DNA of 40,761 nt from Streptosporangiales bacterium (lineage in GTDB: Bacteria; Actinomycetota; Actinomycetes; Streptosporangiales; WHST01), in the NCBI GenBank assembly GCA_009379955.1, contig WHST01000053.1, positions 1 to 40,761 on the forward strand, read 5' to 3'. The first letter of the stretch is position 1; each line of letters starts with the position of its first letter. The translations under genes and the position numbers were made by a program. Positions 1 to 40,761 of the stretch are shown here, one piece after another. The notes under the pieces are model-generated. The model made no database searches, was not told where the DNA came from, and was given only the letters and a program-made list of their open reading frames with translations.

Positions 1-99
1 ATCACCTGTATGACGATCCCGAAGGGTCGACCTTCATCTCCAGCACAGCACGACAATCACGAGCATTCCAGCTTCTACATCAGAACCTCACAATCATCT

Positions 100-1272
100 T
101 CAGGACACACGGTGTCGCTTGCACAGGCAGTGCAGGTTCGCGGTGGCGGTGGGACCACCCTTGCCCCACGGGACCGTGTGGTCCAGCTCGGAACGCCGGG
201 CTCTGCGGGTGCAGCCAGGGAACCGGCAGGTCACGTCTCTGGCCCGGATGTGCCTGGCGAGCCGCGCGCTGGGTGTGTACTGCGGTTCCGCGGGCAGCGG
301 TGCCTCGACCGGCGCCGCGAGGAGCCTGTCGAGGTCTCCGGCGCGGTAGGTCTTGTCCCCGACGGCGGCGAGGACACCGGTTTCCCGGTCGAATGCGAGG
401 CTCCGCCACGAGACCCGCTCACCGGAGGCGAGCGCACGGGCGGTGGACGCGGACACCGATCCGTAGCCGCGCAGCTCCCCGGGTGCGGTGCCGCCTTGGA
501 GGGTGTCGACCGGGACGGTCACCTCCACGAGTGTGGTGATGTTCCGGCGGACGTGGTCGTCGAGGATGAGGTCGGTGAACGCGTCGAACCGGCGCTGCTC
601 CAGGGTCCGCGTATCGCCGGGGATCAGCTTCCGCGCAAGGTCGTCGACCAGGCCGAACACGGTGGTGGTCTGGTCCGCGGGTCCGCGTAGCACGAGGACA
701 CCGGTTTCGCCGGGGTCGGGGCGGTGCCACAGGGTCCGGTCCTCGAAGGCGCGGTCCTTGTGCTCCTCGACCCCGGCGGGGTCGAACTTGGCGACCGCGT
801 GGTTGACGCGGGCGCGGAACTGTCCGACCGGCAGGTCCGGGCGCCGCAACGCGTACTCCTCCACCAACGCGGTCGTCTCCGGGTCCAGGTGTTCGACCGC
901 GTCGGCGAGGATCCGCACGTGCATCGCGGTGAGTTCCCCGGCGGCGAACAGCTTCTGAGTCGCGGGGAGCCGGTCACAGGTGATCCGGGAGACCGCAAGC
1001 CGGTCCGCCGCGGTACCGGTCGCGATCCGCAACACCGCCGCGACCTCCTCGCGGGTGAAGTCATCCTTGGTCACGTCACGAAGCTGATCCAGCCGCGCGA
1101 GCGCGGCGAACTGACGGGCCTGCGCCGCAGCGAGACACCGCTCATAGCCAGCAAGCACCGCAAGAGCGATCTCGGCCGGCGCGGTAGCGAGGTCGACAGT
1201 GTCGAGGGCGGCGTGGGTGGTGCCGGAGGCGGGGAGTGCCTCGATCCGGTCCAGCTCCTCGACGTCGAACAT
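100..1272 (-). CDS. DUF222-domain HNH endonuclease (13E12 repeat family)
   Basis: Predicted nuclease of the actinobacterial DUF222/HNH family, which usually occurs in many copies per genome and whose cellular role is not settled. The first two thirds (about residues 1-290) are the helical DUF222 region. The C-terminus carries the HNH zinc-finger-like motif: CRFPGC, then LDHTVPW with the first catalytic His, then ATANLHCLCKRH with the Asn and last His. The protein stops only three residues after that last His, whereas relatives normally continue with a short helix, so the end may be slightly truncated. The start at 1272 (MFDVEELDRIEAL) is preferred because family members begin this way; an upstream in-frame ATG at 1302 is possible. 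Its 5' flank is rich in repeats. Confidence 0.85.
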   Translation of the reverse strand: MFDVEELDRIEALPASGTTHAALDTVDLATAPAEIALAVLAGYERCLAAAQARQFAALARLDQLRDVTKDDFTREEVAAVLRIATGTAADRLAVSRITCDRLPATQKLFAAGELTAMHVRILADAVEHLDPETTALVEEYALRRPDLPVGQFRARVNHAVAKFDPAGVEEHKDRAFEDRTLWHRPDPGETGVLVLRGPADQTTTVFGLVDDLARKLIPGDTRTLEQRRFDAFTDLILDDHVRRNITTLVEVTVPVDTLQGGTAPGELRGYGSVSASTARALASGERVSWRSLAFDRETGVLAAVGDKTYRAGDLDRLLAAPVEAPLPAEPQYTPSARLARHIRARDVTCRFPGCTRRARRSELDHTVPWGKGGPTATANLHCLCKRHRVS

Positions 1273-2375: not shown

Positions 2376-3881
2376 GTGCTGTCGAGGAGAGCGCGGCTGG
2401 TCCTGGCCGGCGGCGCGACGGTCGCGCTCCTGGCGCCTCCGGCCTGGATGTGCGCGCGGAGTTTCGCCCCACCCACGTACTCGGTGATGGGGATGGGACG
2501 GGTCGACTTCGGGGGCGGTCCCGCGCTCGGCGGACACCTCGGACACACCGACGACCGGTGGGTGGGGCCGGCCCGCCGACCCGGTGACGTCAGCGTCGCC
2601 GACCTCACCGGGCCGCGCGACGTCCGTCCCGACGTGTCGACGACACTGGTCGCGCGCAAGGGTCCGGTCACCCTCGCCACCGGGGAGAAGGTCGACGGCT
2701 ACTCCCTGAACGGCTCCTCGCCAGGGCCACCGATCCGCGCCCGACAGGGCGACGTCGTGCAGGTACGCCTCGTCAACGCGAACATCGCCGAGGGCACGAC
2801 CCTGCACTGGCACGGCGTCGACGTCCCGAACGCCGAGGACGGCGTCGCCGGCGTCACCCAGAACGCCGTGCCCGCCGGCCGGTCACACGTGTACCGGTTC
2901 GTCGCCGAGGACGCCGGCACGTACTGGTACCACTCGCACCAGATCTCCAGCGAACAGGTACGCGACGGCCTATGGGGCACCCTCGTCGTCGAACCACGCG
3001 GCAGGAGCACCTACGCGACGGACGTCGTCGCGCCCGTGCACTCCTACGGCGGGCTCCGCACGGTAGCCGGACGCACCGGCGAGTACCGCGTGCCGGCCCG
3101 CCCGGGCACGACCGCGCGGGTCCGAGTGATCGACACCGACAACGGGCCACTGCGACTCTGGGCCGGCGGCGGCTACCGCGTACTCGCCGTCGACGGCCGC
3201 GACGTGCACCGCCCGACACCCGTCCACGGCAAGAGCGTCGTCGTCGGCGCCGGCGGCCGCGTCGACCTGGAGGTCGCGGTGCCGGCGAGCGGCGACGCCG
3301 TCCGTGTCGAGCTCGGCGGCGGCTCGGCCGTAGTTGTCGGCCCGGCCGGATCGTCCGTACGCAGGACACCGGAACCGTCGCAGCGACTCGACCTGCTCTC
3401 ATACGGCTCGCCGGCCAAGGACGACCTCCGCACCGCGAAGCCGGACCGCGTCTTCGACTACCGCGTCGGCCGGCGTCCCGGCTTCATCAACGGCAAACCC
3501 GGGATGTACTGGTCGATCAACGGCCGACTGTTCCCCGACGTCCCGATGTACGTCGTCGCCGAAGGCGACATCGTACGGATGAAGATCCACAACGGCAGCG
3601 GCGAGGCCCACCCCATGCACCTTCACGGCCACCACGCCCTCGTCCTGTCACGCAACGGCGTCCCTGCGTCCGGGAGCGAGTGGTGGGTCGACTCGCTGAA
3701 CGTCCAGAACGGCGAGTCGTACGAGGTCGCCTTCCGCGCCGACAATCCCGGGCTCTGGATGGACCACTGCCACAACCTGCCGCACGTCAACGAGGGCCTG
3801 ATGGCGCACCTGATGTATGCCGGCGTCTACGGCCCCTACCGCATCGGCGACGCGGCCGGCTCCCACAACAAGCCCGAGTAG
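2376..3881 (+). CDS. Secreted or membrane-anchored multicopper oxidase
   Basis: Laccase-type oxidase (501 aa) that oxidises phenols or metal ions and reduces O2 to water outside the membrane. All four copper-binding motifs are present: HWHG (His144/146), WYHSH (His186/188), HPMHLHGH (His412/415/417) and HCHNLPH (His464, Cys465, His466, His470), the Cys465 segment supplying the type 1 copper. The axial position after His470 reads GLM, favouring a Leu-type, high-potential type 1 site. The N-terminus has a hydrophobic segment (residues 8-25) that acts as signal or anchor. The GTG start lies 3 bp after the DUF6220 stop. About 60 residues of Gly-rich linker precede the first cupredoxin domain. It is convergent with ilvD, separated by 5 bp. 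Confidence 0.9.
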   Translation: MLSRRARLVLAGGATVALLAPPAWMCARSFAPPTYSVMGMGRVDFGGGPALGGHLGHTDDRWVGPARRPGDVSVADLTGPRDVRPDVSTTLVARKGPVTLATGEKVDGYSLNGSSPGPPIRARQGDVVQVRLVNANIAEGTTLHWHGVDVPNAEDGVAGVTQNAVPAGRSHVYRFVAEDAGTYWYHSHQISSEQVRDGLWGTLVVEPRGRSTYATDVVAPVHSYGGLRTVAGRTGEYRVPARPGTTARVRVIDTDNGPLRLWAGGGYRVLAVDGRDVHRPTPVHGKSVVVGAGGRVDLEVAVPASGDAVRVELGGGSAVVVGPAGSSVRRTPEPSQRLDLLSYGSPAKDDLRTAKPDRVFDYRVGRRPGFINGKPGMYWSINGRLFPDVPMYVVAEGDIVRMKIHNGSGEAHPMHLHGHHALVLSRNGVPASGSEWWVDSLNVQNGESYEVAFRADNPGLWMDHCHNLPHVNEGLMAHLMYAGVYGPYRIGDAAGSHNKPE

Positions 3882-3886
3882 GGACG

Positions 3887-5572
3887 TCAGCCGCAGACGG
3901 CCCCCTCGGCCGCGGTGCCGACGAGCTTGGCGTACTTGGCGAGGACGCCGGTGCCGGTCGGGACGGGCGGCGGGGTCCAGTCGGCGCGGCGCTTCTCGAG
4001 CTCGTCCTCGTCGATGAGCAGGTCGAGGGTGCGCGCAGCCAGGTCGAGCCGGATCGGGTCGCCGTCCCTGACGAACGCGATCGGGCCGCCGACGACCGAC
4101 TCGGGCGCGACATGGCCGACGCACAGGCCGGTGGTGCCGCCGGAGAAGCGTCCGTCGGTGAGCAGCATGACGTCCTTGCCGAGTCCCGCGCCCTTGATCG
4201 CACCGGTGACGGCGAGCATCTCGCGCATGCCGGGCCCGCCCCTCGGGCCTTCCTGCCTGATCACCACGACGTCGCCCTTGCGCAGCGAGCCGTCGGCGAC
4301 GGCGTCCATCGCGCCAGGCTCGCCGTCGAACACCCGCGCCGTGCCGTCGAAGACCTCGGCGTCGAAGCCCGCGCTCTTGACCACGGCTCCCTCGGGCGCG
4401 AGCGAGCCGCGCAGGATGGTGAGGCCGCCGGTGCGGTGGATCGGGTCGCCGAGCACGTGGATGATCTTGCCGTCCGGGTCGGGCGGGTCGACGGCCGCGA
4501 GGTTCTCCGCGATCGTCCTGCCGGTGACCGTGAGGCAGTCGCCGTGCAGCAGGCCGGCGTCGAGGAGCGCCTTCATCGCGACCGGCACGCCGCCGACCTC
4601 GTCGACGTCGGTCATGACGTAGCGGCCGAACGGCTTCACGTCGGCGAGGTGCGGGGTGCGGTCGCCGATGCGGTTGAAGTCGTCGAGGTCGAGGTCGACC
4701 TGCGCCTCGTGCGCGATCGCGAGCAGGTGCAGGACCGCGTTGGTCGAGCCGCCGAGCGCCATGACGACGGTGATCGCGTTCTCCAACGCCTCCTTCGTCA
4801 TGATCTGCCGCGCGGTGATGCCCGCGTCGACGAGCGCGACGACGGCCTCGCCGCTCTGCCGCGCGAAGACGTCGCGGCGGGCGTCGGGCGCGGGCGGCGC
4901 GGCGCTGCCCGGCAGCGACATGCCCATCGCCTCGGCGGCGGCCGCCATCGTGTTGGCGGTGTACATGCCGGCGCACGCGCCCTCGCCCGGGCAGATCGCG
5001 CGCTCGATCTCGCCGAGCTCGGCCTCGGTGATCCGGCCGGCGAGGCACGCGCCGACGCCCTCGAACGCGTCGATGATGTTCATGTCGCGGCCGTGCAGGC
5101 GTCCCGGCATGATCGTGCCGGCGTACAGGTAGACCGACGCGAGGTCGAGGCGCGCCGCGGCCATCAGCATGCCGGGCTCGGACTTGTCGCATCCCGCGAG
5201 CAGCACGCTGCCGTCGAGGCGTTCGGCCTGGATGACGGTCTCGACGGAGTCGGCGATCACCTCGCGCGACACGAGCGAGTAGTGCATGCCCACGTGCCCC
5301 ATCGAGATGCCGTCAGACACCGAGATGGTGCCGAACTCCAGCGGGTACCCGTCAGCGGCGTGCACGCCCTCCTTCGCCTTCTTGGCGAGCCGGTCGAGCG
5401 ACAGGTTGCACGGGGTGATCTCGTTCCACGACGACGCGACGCCGATCTGCGGCTTGCGCCAGTCGTCGTCGCCCATGCCCACCGCACGCAGCATGCCGCG
5501 CGCACCGGCACGCGCGATGCCGTCGGTGACCTCGTGGCTCCGTGGCTTCTTGTGCTCCCGGCGCTCCCGCAT
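3887..5572 (-). CDS. ilvD: Dihydroxy-acid dehydratase
   Basis: Dehydrates 2,3-dihydroxy-isovalerate and 2,3-dihydroxy-3-methylvalerate to the 2-oxo acids in branched-chain amino acid synthesis. Full length at 561 aa. The three cysteines of a [2Fe-2S] type enzyme are visible: Cys55 (EITPCN), Cys128 (AGCDKSEPG) and Cys200 ([14 protein letters not shown]). The start at 5572 has GAGGAGA 5 nt upstream and the N-terminus is typical ([17 protein letters not shown]). Its neighbours are unrelated to amino acid synthesis, so it is probably a monocistronic housekeeping gene. Related sugar-acid dehydratases share the fold, but overall motif identity favours IlvD. Confidence 0.92.
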
Positions 5573-39667: not shown

Positions 39668-40617
39668 TCACATCCGGTCGATAGCAGCCAGGTCGTCGAC
39701 CGTGAGCCGCCAGTCGACGGCCGCGGCGTTCGCGCGGACCTGATCCGGCCGTGTCGCGCCCGCGATCACCGACACCACCATCGGACGCGCCGCGAGCCAG
39801 GCGAACGCGAGCTCGAGGAGGGTGTGGCCGCGTTCCGCGGCGAACGCCGACAGGCGCGCGACCCGGTCGAGGTTCTCGTCGGTGAGGCCGAGGTGCGGGC
39901 GGTTCGGCGCGAAGTTCGCCAGCCGCGAGTCCGCCGGCGCCGGCCTGTCCTTGCCGTACTTGCCGGTGAGCAGTCCACCGGCCAACGGGAAATACGGCAG
40001 GAACGTGACGCCGTTCCTCTCGCACACCTCGAGCACCCCGCGCTCCGGCTCGCGGGACAGCAGGCTGTACTCGTTCTGCACGCTCACGAACGACGCGTCG
40101 CCCTGCCGGCCGCCGGCGGCGACCACCTCCTCGAGCTGGGCGGTCGTGAAGTTGGAGCAGCCGATCTCGCGCACCTTGCCGGCCTTGATCAGCTCGGTCA
40201 GCGCGCCGAGGGTCTCCTCGATCGGCGTGTCCGGGTCGGCCGGTGGATCTGGTAGAGGTCGATGTAGTCGGTGCCCAGCCGGCGCAGGCTGTCGTCGCAC
40301 GCGAGGTGAGTCCAGCGGCGACTGCCGCCCCTGTTCCGCGGGTCGTCGCCCATCGGGTTGCCGAACTTCGTCGCGACCACGACCCTCTCGCGACGTGACC
40401 TCAACGCCTTGCCGAGGAACTCCTCAGAGCGACCGTGCCCGGAGAACGGGAGGTCGCCGTACCCGTACCGGTCCGACGTGTCGAAGAAGTTGATGCCGGC
40501 GTCGAGCGCAGCGTCGACCACGTCGCCTGCCCGCCGTTCGTCGATCTTGCGCGCGAACTGGTTGCAGCCCACGCCGACCAGCGACACGGACAGGGAACCG
40601 ATCGAACGAGTCTCCAT
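39668..40617 (-). pseudogene. Aldo/keto reductase with a one-base frameshift
   Basis: NAD(P)H-dependent carbonyl reductase or dehydrogenase of the AKR superfamily, about 316 aa if repaired. The catalytic tetrad is visible: Asp46, Tyr51 (DTSDRYGYG), Lys84 (VATKFG), His125 (DLYQIHRP). After HRP the frame breaks near 40236-40242: the first frame runs into TRTRRSRR and stops, while PDTPIEETLGALTELIKAG continues in another frame to VDDLAAIDRM. Length is one base short of a multiple of three; adding one G gives HRPDPDTPIEETL. The ATG at 40617 has no ribosome binding site because the group II intron ends 3-4 bases before it. Confidence 0.75.
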
Positions 40618-40660
40618 GATGGTGAGTCGGCGGCGGGAGTTGCACCCGCCGCCGCTCGTA

Positions 40661-40694
40661 GAACCGTGCGTGACACTCTCGCGTCACACGGCTC
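40661..40694 (-). ncRNA. Group II intron domain V
   Basis: Exactly 34 nt. It begins GAGCCGTG and ends CACGGTTC, which pair over eight bases and include the AGC catalytic triad. A two-base bulge (CG) and an upper stem capped by a GNRA loop (GAGA) follow. This is the canonical domain V fold. Confidence 0.88.
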
Positions 40695-40761
40695 CCGTCG
40701 TCGAGCCGCTGGGGAGTGCACCGTGTTGCCAGTGGGTGAATAGTCCCGGCTGGTTGGTGGC
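40684..40761 (-). CDS. C-terminal end of group II intron-encoded reverse transcriptase/maturase (partial)
   Basis: The last 25 codons of an open frame entering from beyond the window: NQPGLFTHWQHGALPSGS and a few more residues, then TGA at 40684-40686. The G-L-F-x-H-W pattern is typical of the end of bacterial intron-encoded proteins, and the stop lies within domain V as is often seen. Too short to show any reverse transcriptase motif. Confidence 0.65.
   Translation of the reverse strand, partial: ATNQPGLFTHWQHGALPSGSTTGAV

Follow-up and report, generated by a model that had tools for sequence, protein, structure and literature searches.

An RmInt1-like group II intron resident in DUF222-HNH nuclease genes and its probable ectopic copy before an aldo/keto reductase gene

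The 3' end of a group II intron lies directly before the start codon of an aldo/keto reductase gene at the right edge of the window, which is the complete contig C53 (40,761 bases) of a draft Streptosporangiales genome (6.6 Mb in 225 contigs, 71% G+C, 3.8% estimated contamination). Comparison with the remaining contigs and with full-length relatives indicates that this is very probably one copy of a recently multiplied class D intron, encoding a reverse transcriptase (RT) without endonuclease domain, that homes to DUF222-HNH nuclease genes, the window copy being a rare ectopic insertion. The relevant features of the window are as follows (slashes within sequences mark the insertion point).

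1-110, minus strand: start of a second copy of this intron, 110 nt (GTGTGTCCTGAAG..., the shared 5' intron end)
111-1272, minus strand: 5' exon of that left-end copy, a DUF222-HNH nuclease gene (PF02720, PF01844) broken at ...CKRH/HR
39671-40617, minus strand: aldo/keto reductase gene (PF00248), two overlapping ORFs with a one-base frameshift between ~40234 and ~40239
40618-40620, minus strand: ATC, the 3' exon bases between the intron end at 40621 and the ATG; splice boundary set by IS3 reading frames in relatives
40621-40761, minus strand: 3'-terminal 141 nt of the group II intron (RF00029, 54.1 bits); the genome has 13 more 3' ends at 100% identity, and the contig ends inside the repeat
40624-40657, minus strand: domain VI hairpin, bulged A at 40627, seven bases from the intron end (minimum-free-energy fold)
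40661-40694, minus strand: domain V, 34 nt, AGC catalytic triad (GAGCC...GGTTC), from Rfam alignment and fold
40684-40761, minus strand: intron-encoded reverse transcriptase/maturase, last 25 codons and a TGA stop inside domain V (ATNQPGLFTHWQHGALPSGSTTGAV-stop, compared with ASVYPGMFAHWKHGALPTGSMTGAV-stop in relatives)

The only Rfam match in the entire window is RF00029 (group II intron domains V and VI) at 40621-40696 on the minus strand, covering the full model with 54.1 bits (gathering score 40, E 5e-8). Here the minus strand forms a domain V hairpin carrying the catalytic triad and a domain VI hairpin with a single bulged A, at a folding energy of -51 kcal/mol that none of 200 shuffles equalled (z -5.2). 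By analogy with the family, this A at 40627 is the putative branch point. A group II intron end immediately upstream of the reductase start, with a 34-nt domain V and a domain VI on the minus strand, had been proposed in a first-pass annotation made from the window alone, and is borne out by these data. Seven 5' ends belonging to other copies, which are not physically joined to the window copy, begin with GTGTG, in agreement with the 5' GUGYG typical of such introns.

The exact 3' end could be either ACTCAC (40622) or ACTCACC (40621), and the genomic copies cannot decide between these as the DUF222 target has a C on both sides. In two full-length relatives, the joined flanks give an intact IS3 transposase frame (RVGSALDNAAAESFF; GDSYDNALAE) only with ACTCACC as the last intron bases. 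The intron end is therefore placed at 40621, leaving ATC/ATG as the 3' exon start, which is consistent with the Rfam boundary, the GTGTG start and a branch A at -7. The end ACTCAC that the first-pass annotation had given, in line with the AY rule, does not stand, since with it the IS3 genes of both relatives would be out of frame; the exon boundary, formerly put at 3-4 bases before the ATG, is now settled at 3. The intron thus ends in CC by the reading-frame argument rather than in the common but not obligatory AY. This rule is not defining in the RmInt1-like class, since the Sinorhizobium meliloti copies likewise end in ACTCACC and RmInt1 itself is reported to have a run of four C at the 3' splice site (PMC4238363).

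The RT had been described as cut off, which holds insofar as the contig ends inside it, yet its last 25 residues are present (40761-40684). This C-terminus, ATNQPGLFTHWQHGALPSGSTTGAV-stop, matches those of the relatives' RTs (ASVYPGMFAHWKHGALPTGSMTGAV-stop), and an RmInt1-like copy ends in ...NPGLFVHWKA. Traces of an RT and of 5' intron domains, whose absence would have spoken against the first-pass reading, do exist: the RT C-terminus lies in the window and 5' intron ends lie on other contigs.

The genome contains 14 identical intron 3' ends (the window and 13 others), every one at a contig end. C53 hence ends where it does because the intron is a multicopy repeat. The 5' end (GTGTGTCCTGAAG...) was found at six contig ends (C36, C83, C134, C199, C67 and the left end of the window), leaving about eight 5' ends absent from the assembly, and is known for ~137 nt. 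A 76-nt remnant of the 5' end is also seen in a DUF222-HNH gene at C76:30537-30612, where part of the downstream exon is deleted as well. Most of domains I-IV and the RT are absent from the assembly; a search of the contigs for the RT body returned only the RTs of two other introns (on C50 and C180). Presumably, the bin lacks a collapsed, high-depth intron middle of ~1.6 kb. The two other group II introns are of a different type (domain V GAGAGCCCGGTG...), located on C50 (L039, positions 2404-4400, minus strand), with a 493-aa open frame for the RT, and on C180 (L038, positions 1-1010), with an RT truncated at the contig start.

All but one of the 3' exons (13 of 14) correspond to a single codon-level site in DUF222-HNH nuclease genes, as do five of the six complete 5' exons, the exception being that on C67. 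The home site CRCACC/ACCGG encodes ...C(K/R)RH/HR(L/M/W)KD..., such that the HNH motif is broken at its last histidines; uninterrupted DUF222-HNH genes are found on C54, C17, C28 and C35. In two of the 13 DUF222 copies (L027 on C12 and L034 on C205) the 3' junction is shifted 3 nt downstream (ACTCACC/GGATG), possibly through use of the repeated CACCACC as a slipped target. A coding motif as target does not correspond to class C (IIC) introns, which insert after terminator hairpins or attC sites and encode a class C RT. The identity of the many copies and their common target site imply recent mobility, as judged from sequence comparison. The intron is absent from two genomes of the same genus, so its expansion looks recent and local. 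When 84,980 species genomes were scanned for the sequence pattern of the intron/DUF222 junction, there was no match outside its own genome; none was found in the viral contigs and phages searched, and a literature search returned no paper joining group II introns with DUF222 or 13E12.

Full-length relatives of 1,898 and 1,924 nt, each with a 425-aa RT devoid of an endonuclease domain, were found on Rhodococcus and Streptosporangium plasmids, in both cases antisense in IS3 transposase genes. The intron of Rhodococcus aetherivorans plasmid NZ_CP154794.1 (~64803-66700, minus strand) matches the query at 85% identity across the query's final 119 nt and at ~76% across its initial 133 nt, and has the same 5' GTGTGTCCTGA and 3' CCGACTCACC as the intron described here. 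It lies in antisense orientation within an IS3-type transposase, at the DNA(L)AE motif (IBS1 GCGTTG), whereas the present intron sits in sense orientation in DUF222-HNH genes. The 1,924-nt intron of Streptosporangium sp. NBC_01495 plasmid NZ_CP109431.1 is 80% identical at both ends, its RT is 85% identical to that of the Rhodococcus intron, and it differs from the DUF222 copies in lying antisense in an IS3-family transposase at ...SALD/NAAAESFF. In the Streptosporangium intron, all six bases of EBS1 (CAATGC, nt 266) pair with IBS1 GCATTG; the Rhodococcus intron also contains CAATGC, facing IBS1 GCGTTG with one G-U pair. Related introns on Streptosporangium and Streptomyces plasmids (L143, L145 and L146) are likewise antisense to IS3-family transposase genes, the L143 junction having been read directly and the orientation of L145 and L146 taken from annotation only. 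In this orientation, removal of the intron from the transposase mRNA by splicing would not be possible.

The relatives' RTs are 51% identical to three near-identical, 413-residue RmInt1-like matches on pSymA/pSymB of S. meliloti 1021, compared with 36-41% to the RTs of other introns in that strain, a difference that likewise speaks against class C. The S. meliloti copies share with the relatives the RT C-terminus PGxFxHW and an RT without endonuclease domain, and with our intron the same 3' end (CTACTCACC/GACTCACC). This suggests assignment to class D (RmInt1-like) by way of the relatives' RTs, the RT of the window intron itself being known from its last 25 residues only. For RmInt1, the home is the multicopy ISRm2011-2, and ectopic insertions are known in oxidoreductase genes, including one with a home-like IBS (PMC5894124, PMC4496777). 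A multicopy home combined with rare ectopic copies, one of them in an oxidoreductase gene, is a further point of likeness. The two differ in their homes, an IS630-type ISRm2011-2 transposase for RmInt1 and the DUF222-HNH genes' HNH motif here, and in that the RT stop of our intron lies inside domain V.

The window copy is the only one with a 3' exon outside DUF222 genes, and is best read as an ectopic insertion. The only complete 5' exon outside DUF222 genes is that of C67, so that by parsimony C67 and C53 are probably the two flanks of one insertion. The candidate junction has ...GAATGCATC (right end of C67) as 5' flank and ATCATGG (C53) as 3' flank; joined, the site reads ...GACATTATGTAGAATGCATC/ATCATGGAGACT. 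The C67 5' exon keeps the positions common to all sites, TGY......RCAYC, a pattern that occurs at ~2.6e-4 per position in the window. Another 5' partner is possible, given the approximately eight 5' ends absent from the assembly. None of 80 reductase-homologue loci carried C67 neighbour genes, the flanking blocks being scattered, and hence synteny in relatives gave no instance of C67-C53 adjacency. The C67 flank is an intergenic region next to a divergent ORF. In it, a -10-like TAGAAT box precedes the joined ATG by 8 nt; this box was found by eye and post hoc in G+C-rich sequence, with a chance probability of ~0.0015. A sigma70-type promoter scan of the same flank found nothing by the two-hexamer rule, and no obvious Shine-Dalgarno sequence is seen there. 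The position of the box suggests a leaderless reductase message.

The best reductase homologues, at most 58% identical, align from their own Met at ATG 40617, which is therefore taken as the natural start. They also align unbroken across the point, ~380 nt into the ORF, where the frame changes; PF00248 is found in both overlapping ORFs, and the frameshift is either a mutation or a sequence error. If it is real, expression of the reductase may be moot. The first-pass annotation had the gene deprived of its native ribosome binding site and promoter unless rescued by splicing or by transcription supplied from the intron. It is indeed parted from its native upstream sequence, and the effect of the insertion is probably loss of native transcription, making the claim of lost regulation plausible. 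A lost ribosome binding site cannot be demonstrated; the probable native flank on C67 has no obvious Shine-Dalgarno sequence. Nor would splicing be a workable rescue if the C67 pairing holds and TAGAAT is the -10 box of the reductase: transcription would begin within the first intron bases and the transcript would have no 5' exon, so that splicing could not restore the reductase message.

We propose that an RmInt1-like, endonuclease-less class D intron, recently multiplied to 14 or more copies that show no difference in any 3' sequence open to comparison, would normally home to the HNH motif of the multicopy DUF222-HNH family through intron-exon pairing at a loose site, TGYnnnnnnRCAYC/R. By analogy with RmInt1 and the full-length relatives, the ribonucleoprotein would reverse-splice into DNA guided by EBS1/EBS2-IBS pairing. 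The window copy would then be the product of reverse splicing at a site that matches only in part, TGTAGAATGCATC/ATCATG, three bases before the reductase start codon and in sense orientation. Such an insertion would move the promoter region of the reductase ~1.9 kb away and, if the C67 pairing holds, would have split the TAGAAT box from the ATG; splicing would rescue only transcripts begun upstream of the 5' exon.

The arrangement could also stem from a recombination or deletion event that joined the reductase region to an intron in a DUF222-HNH gene, placing the reductase behind half a DUF222 gene, in which case the 5' exon would be DUF222. The many identical copies are suitable substrates, the C76 remnant shows that copies get deleted, and the assembly does not connect the window copy to its 5' partner. 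We nevertheless consider this route unlikely: the reductase side takes up precisely where the intron ends, C67 offers a 5' end outside DUF222 genes that is otherwise without a partner, and recombination within the intron would still require a pre-existing intron at the reductase site. The same exact join, unlike what a random misassembly would give, makes it highly improbable that the intron tail was wrongly attached to the reductase at the end of C53. An assembly chimera would fit a 225-contig draft with some estimated contamination, the location of 14/14 copies at contig ends inside a repeat, and a reductase frameshift that can itself be an assembly or read error, but the 141-nt intron part is also identical to the other copies.

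A distinctly unlikely alternative is that the intron 3' end now serves the reductase as promoter or leader, the insertion driving its expression instead of breaking it. The sense orientation three bases before the ATG is as this would require, and an intron-internal RT promoter would read toward the reductase. However, no Shine-Dalgarno-like sequence occurs in the last 20 intron bases, the reductase is frameshifted, and the single, sequence-identical and recent copy bears no sign of selection. Reverse splicing into an ectopic site is hence the reading we retain. A broader account, in which a class D lineage moved from a home antisense in a conserved IS3-transposase motif to the active-site motif of the DUF222-HNH family, a chromosomal one with many members interrupted, and in which the escapee sits between a -10 box and a leaderless start where splicing cannot rescue the gene, is tentative, and we lean somewhat against its holding in full.

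The ectopic reading was beyond reach without the rest of the genome, and the earlier annotation did not include the repeat nature of the intron, the reductase frameshift or the second copy at 1-110. A multicopy intron of this kind offers a practical explanation for many contig breaks in draft genomes. While the kind of element, an RmInt1-like group II intron, is already known, the target is new: DUF222-HNH proteins are a poorly understood multicopy nuclease family, here with the catalytic motif interrupted by an intron. The relatives, with another target and a readable EBS1, open a direct test of target switching in such introns. The RmInt1 life style of a multicopy home with rare ectopic jumps would thus extend to an actinobacterium and to a DUF222-HNH home.
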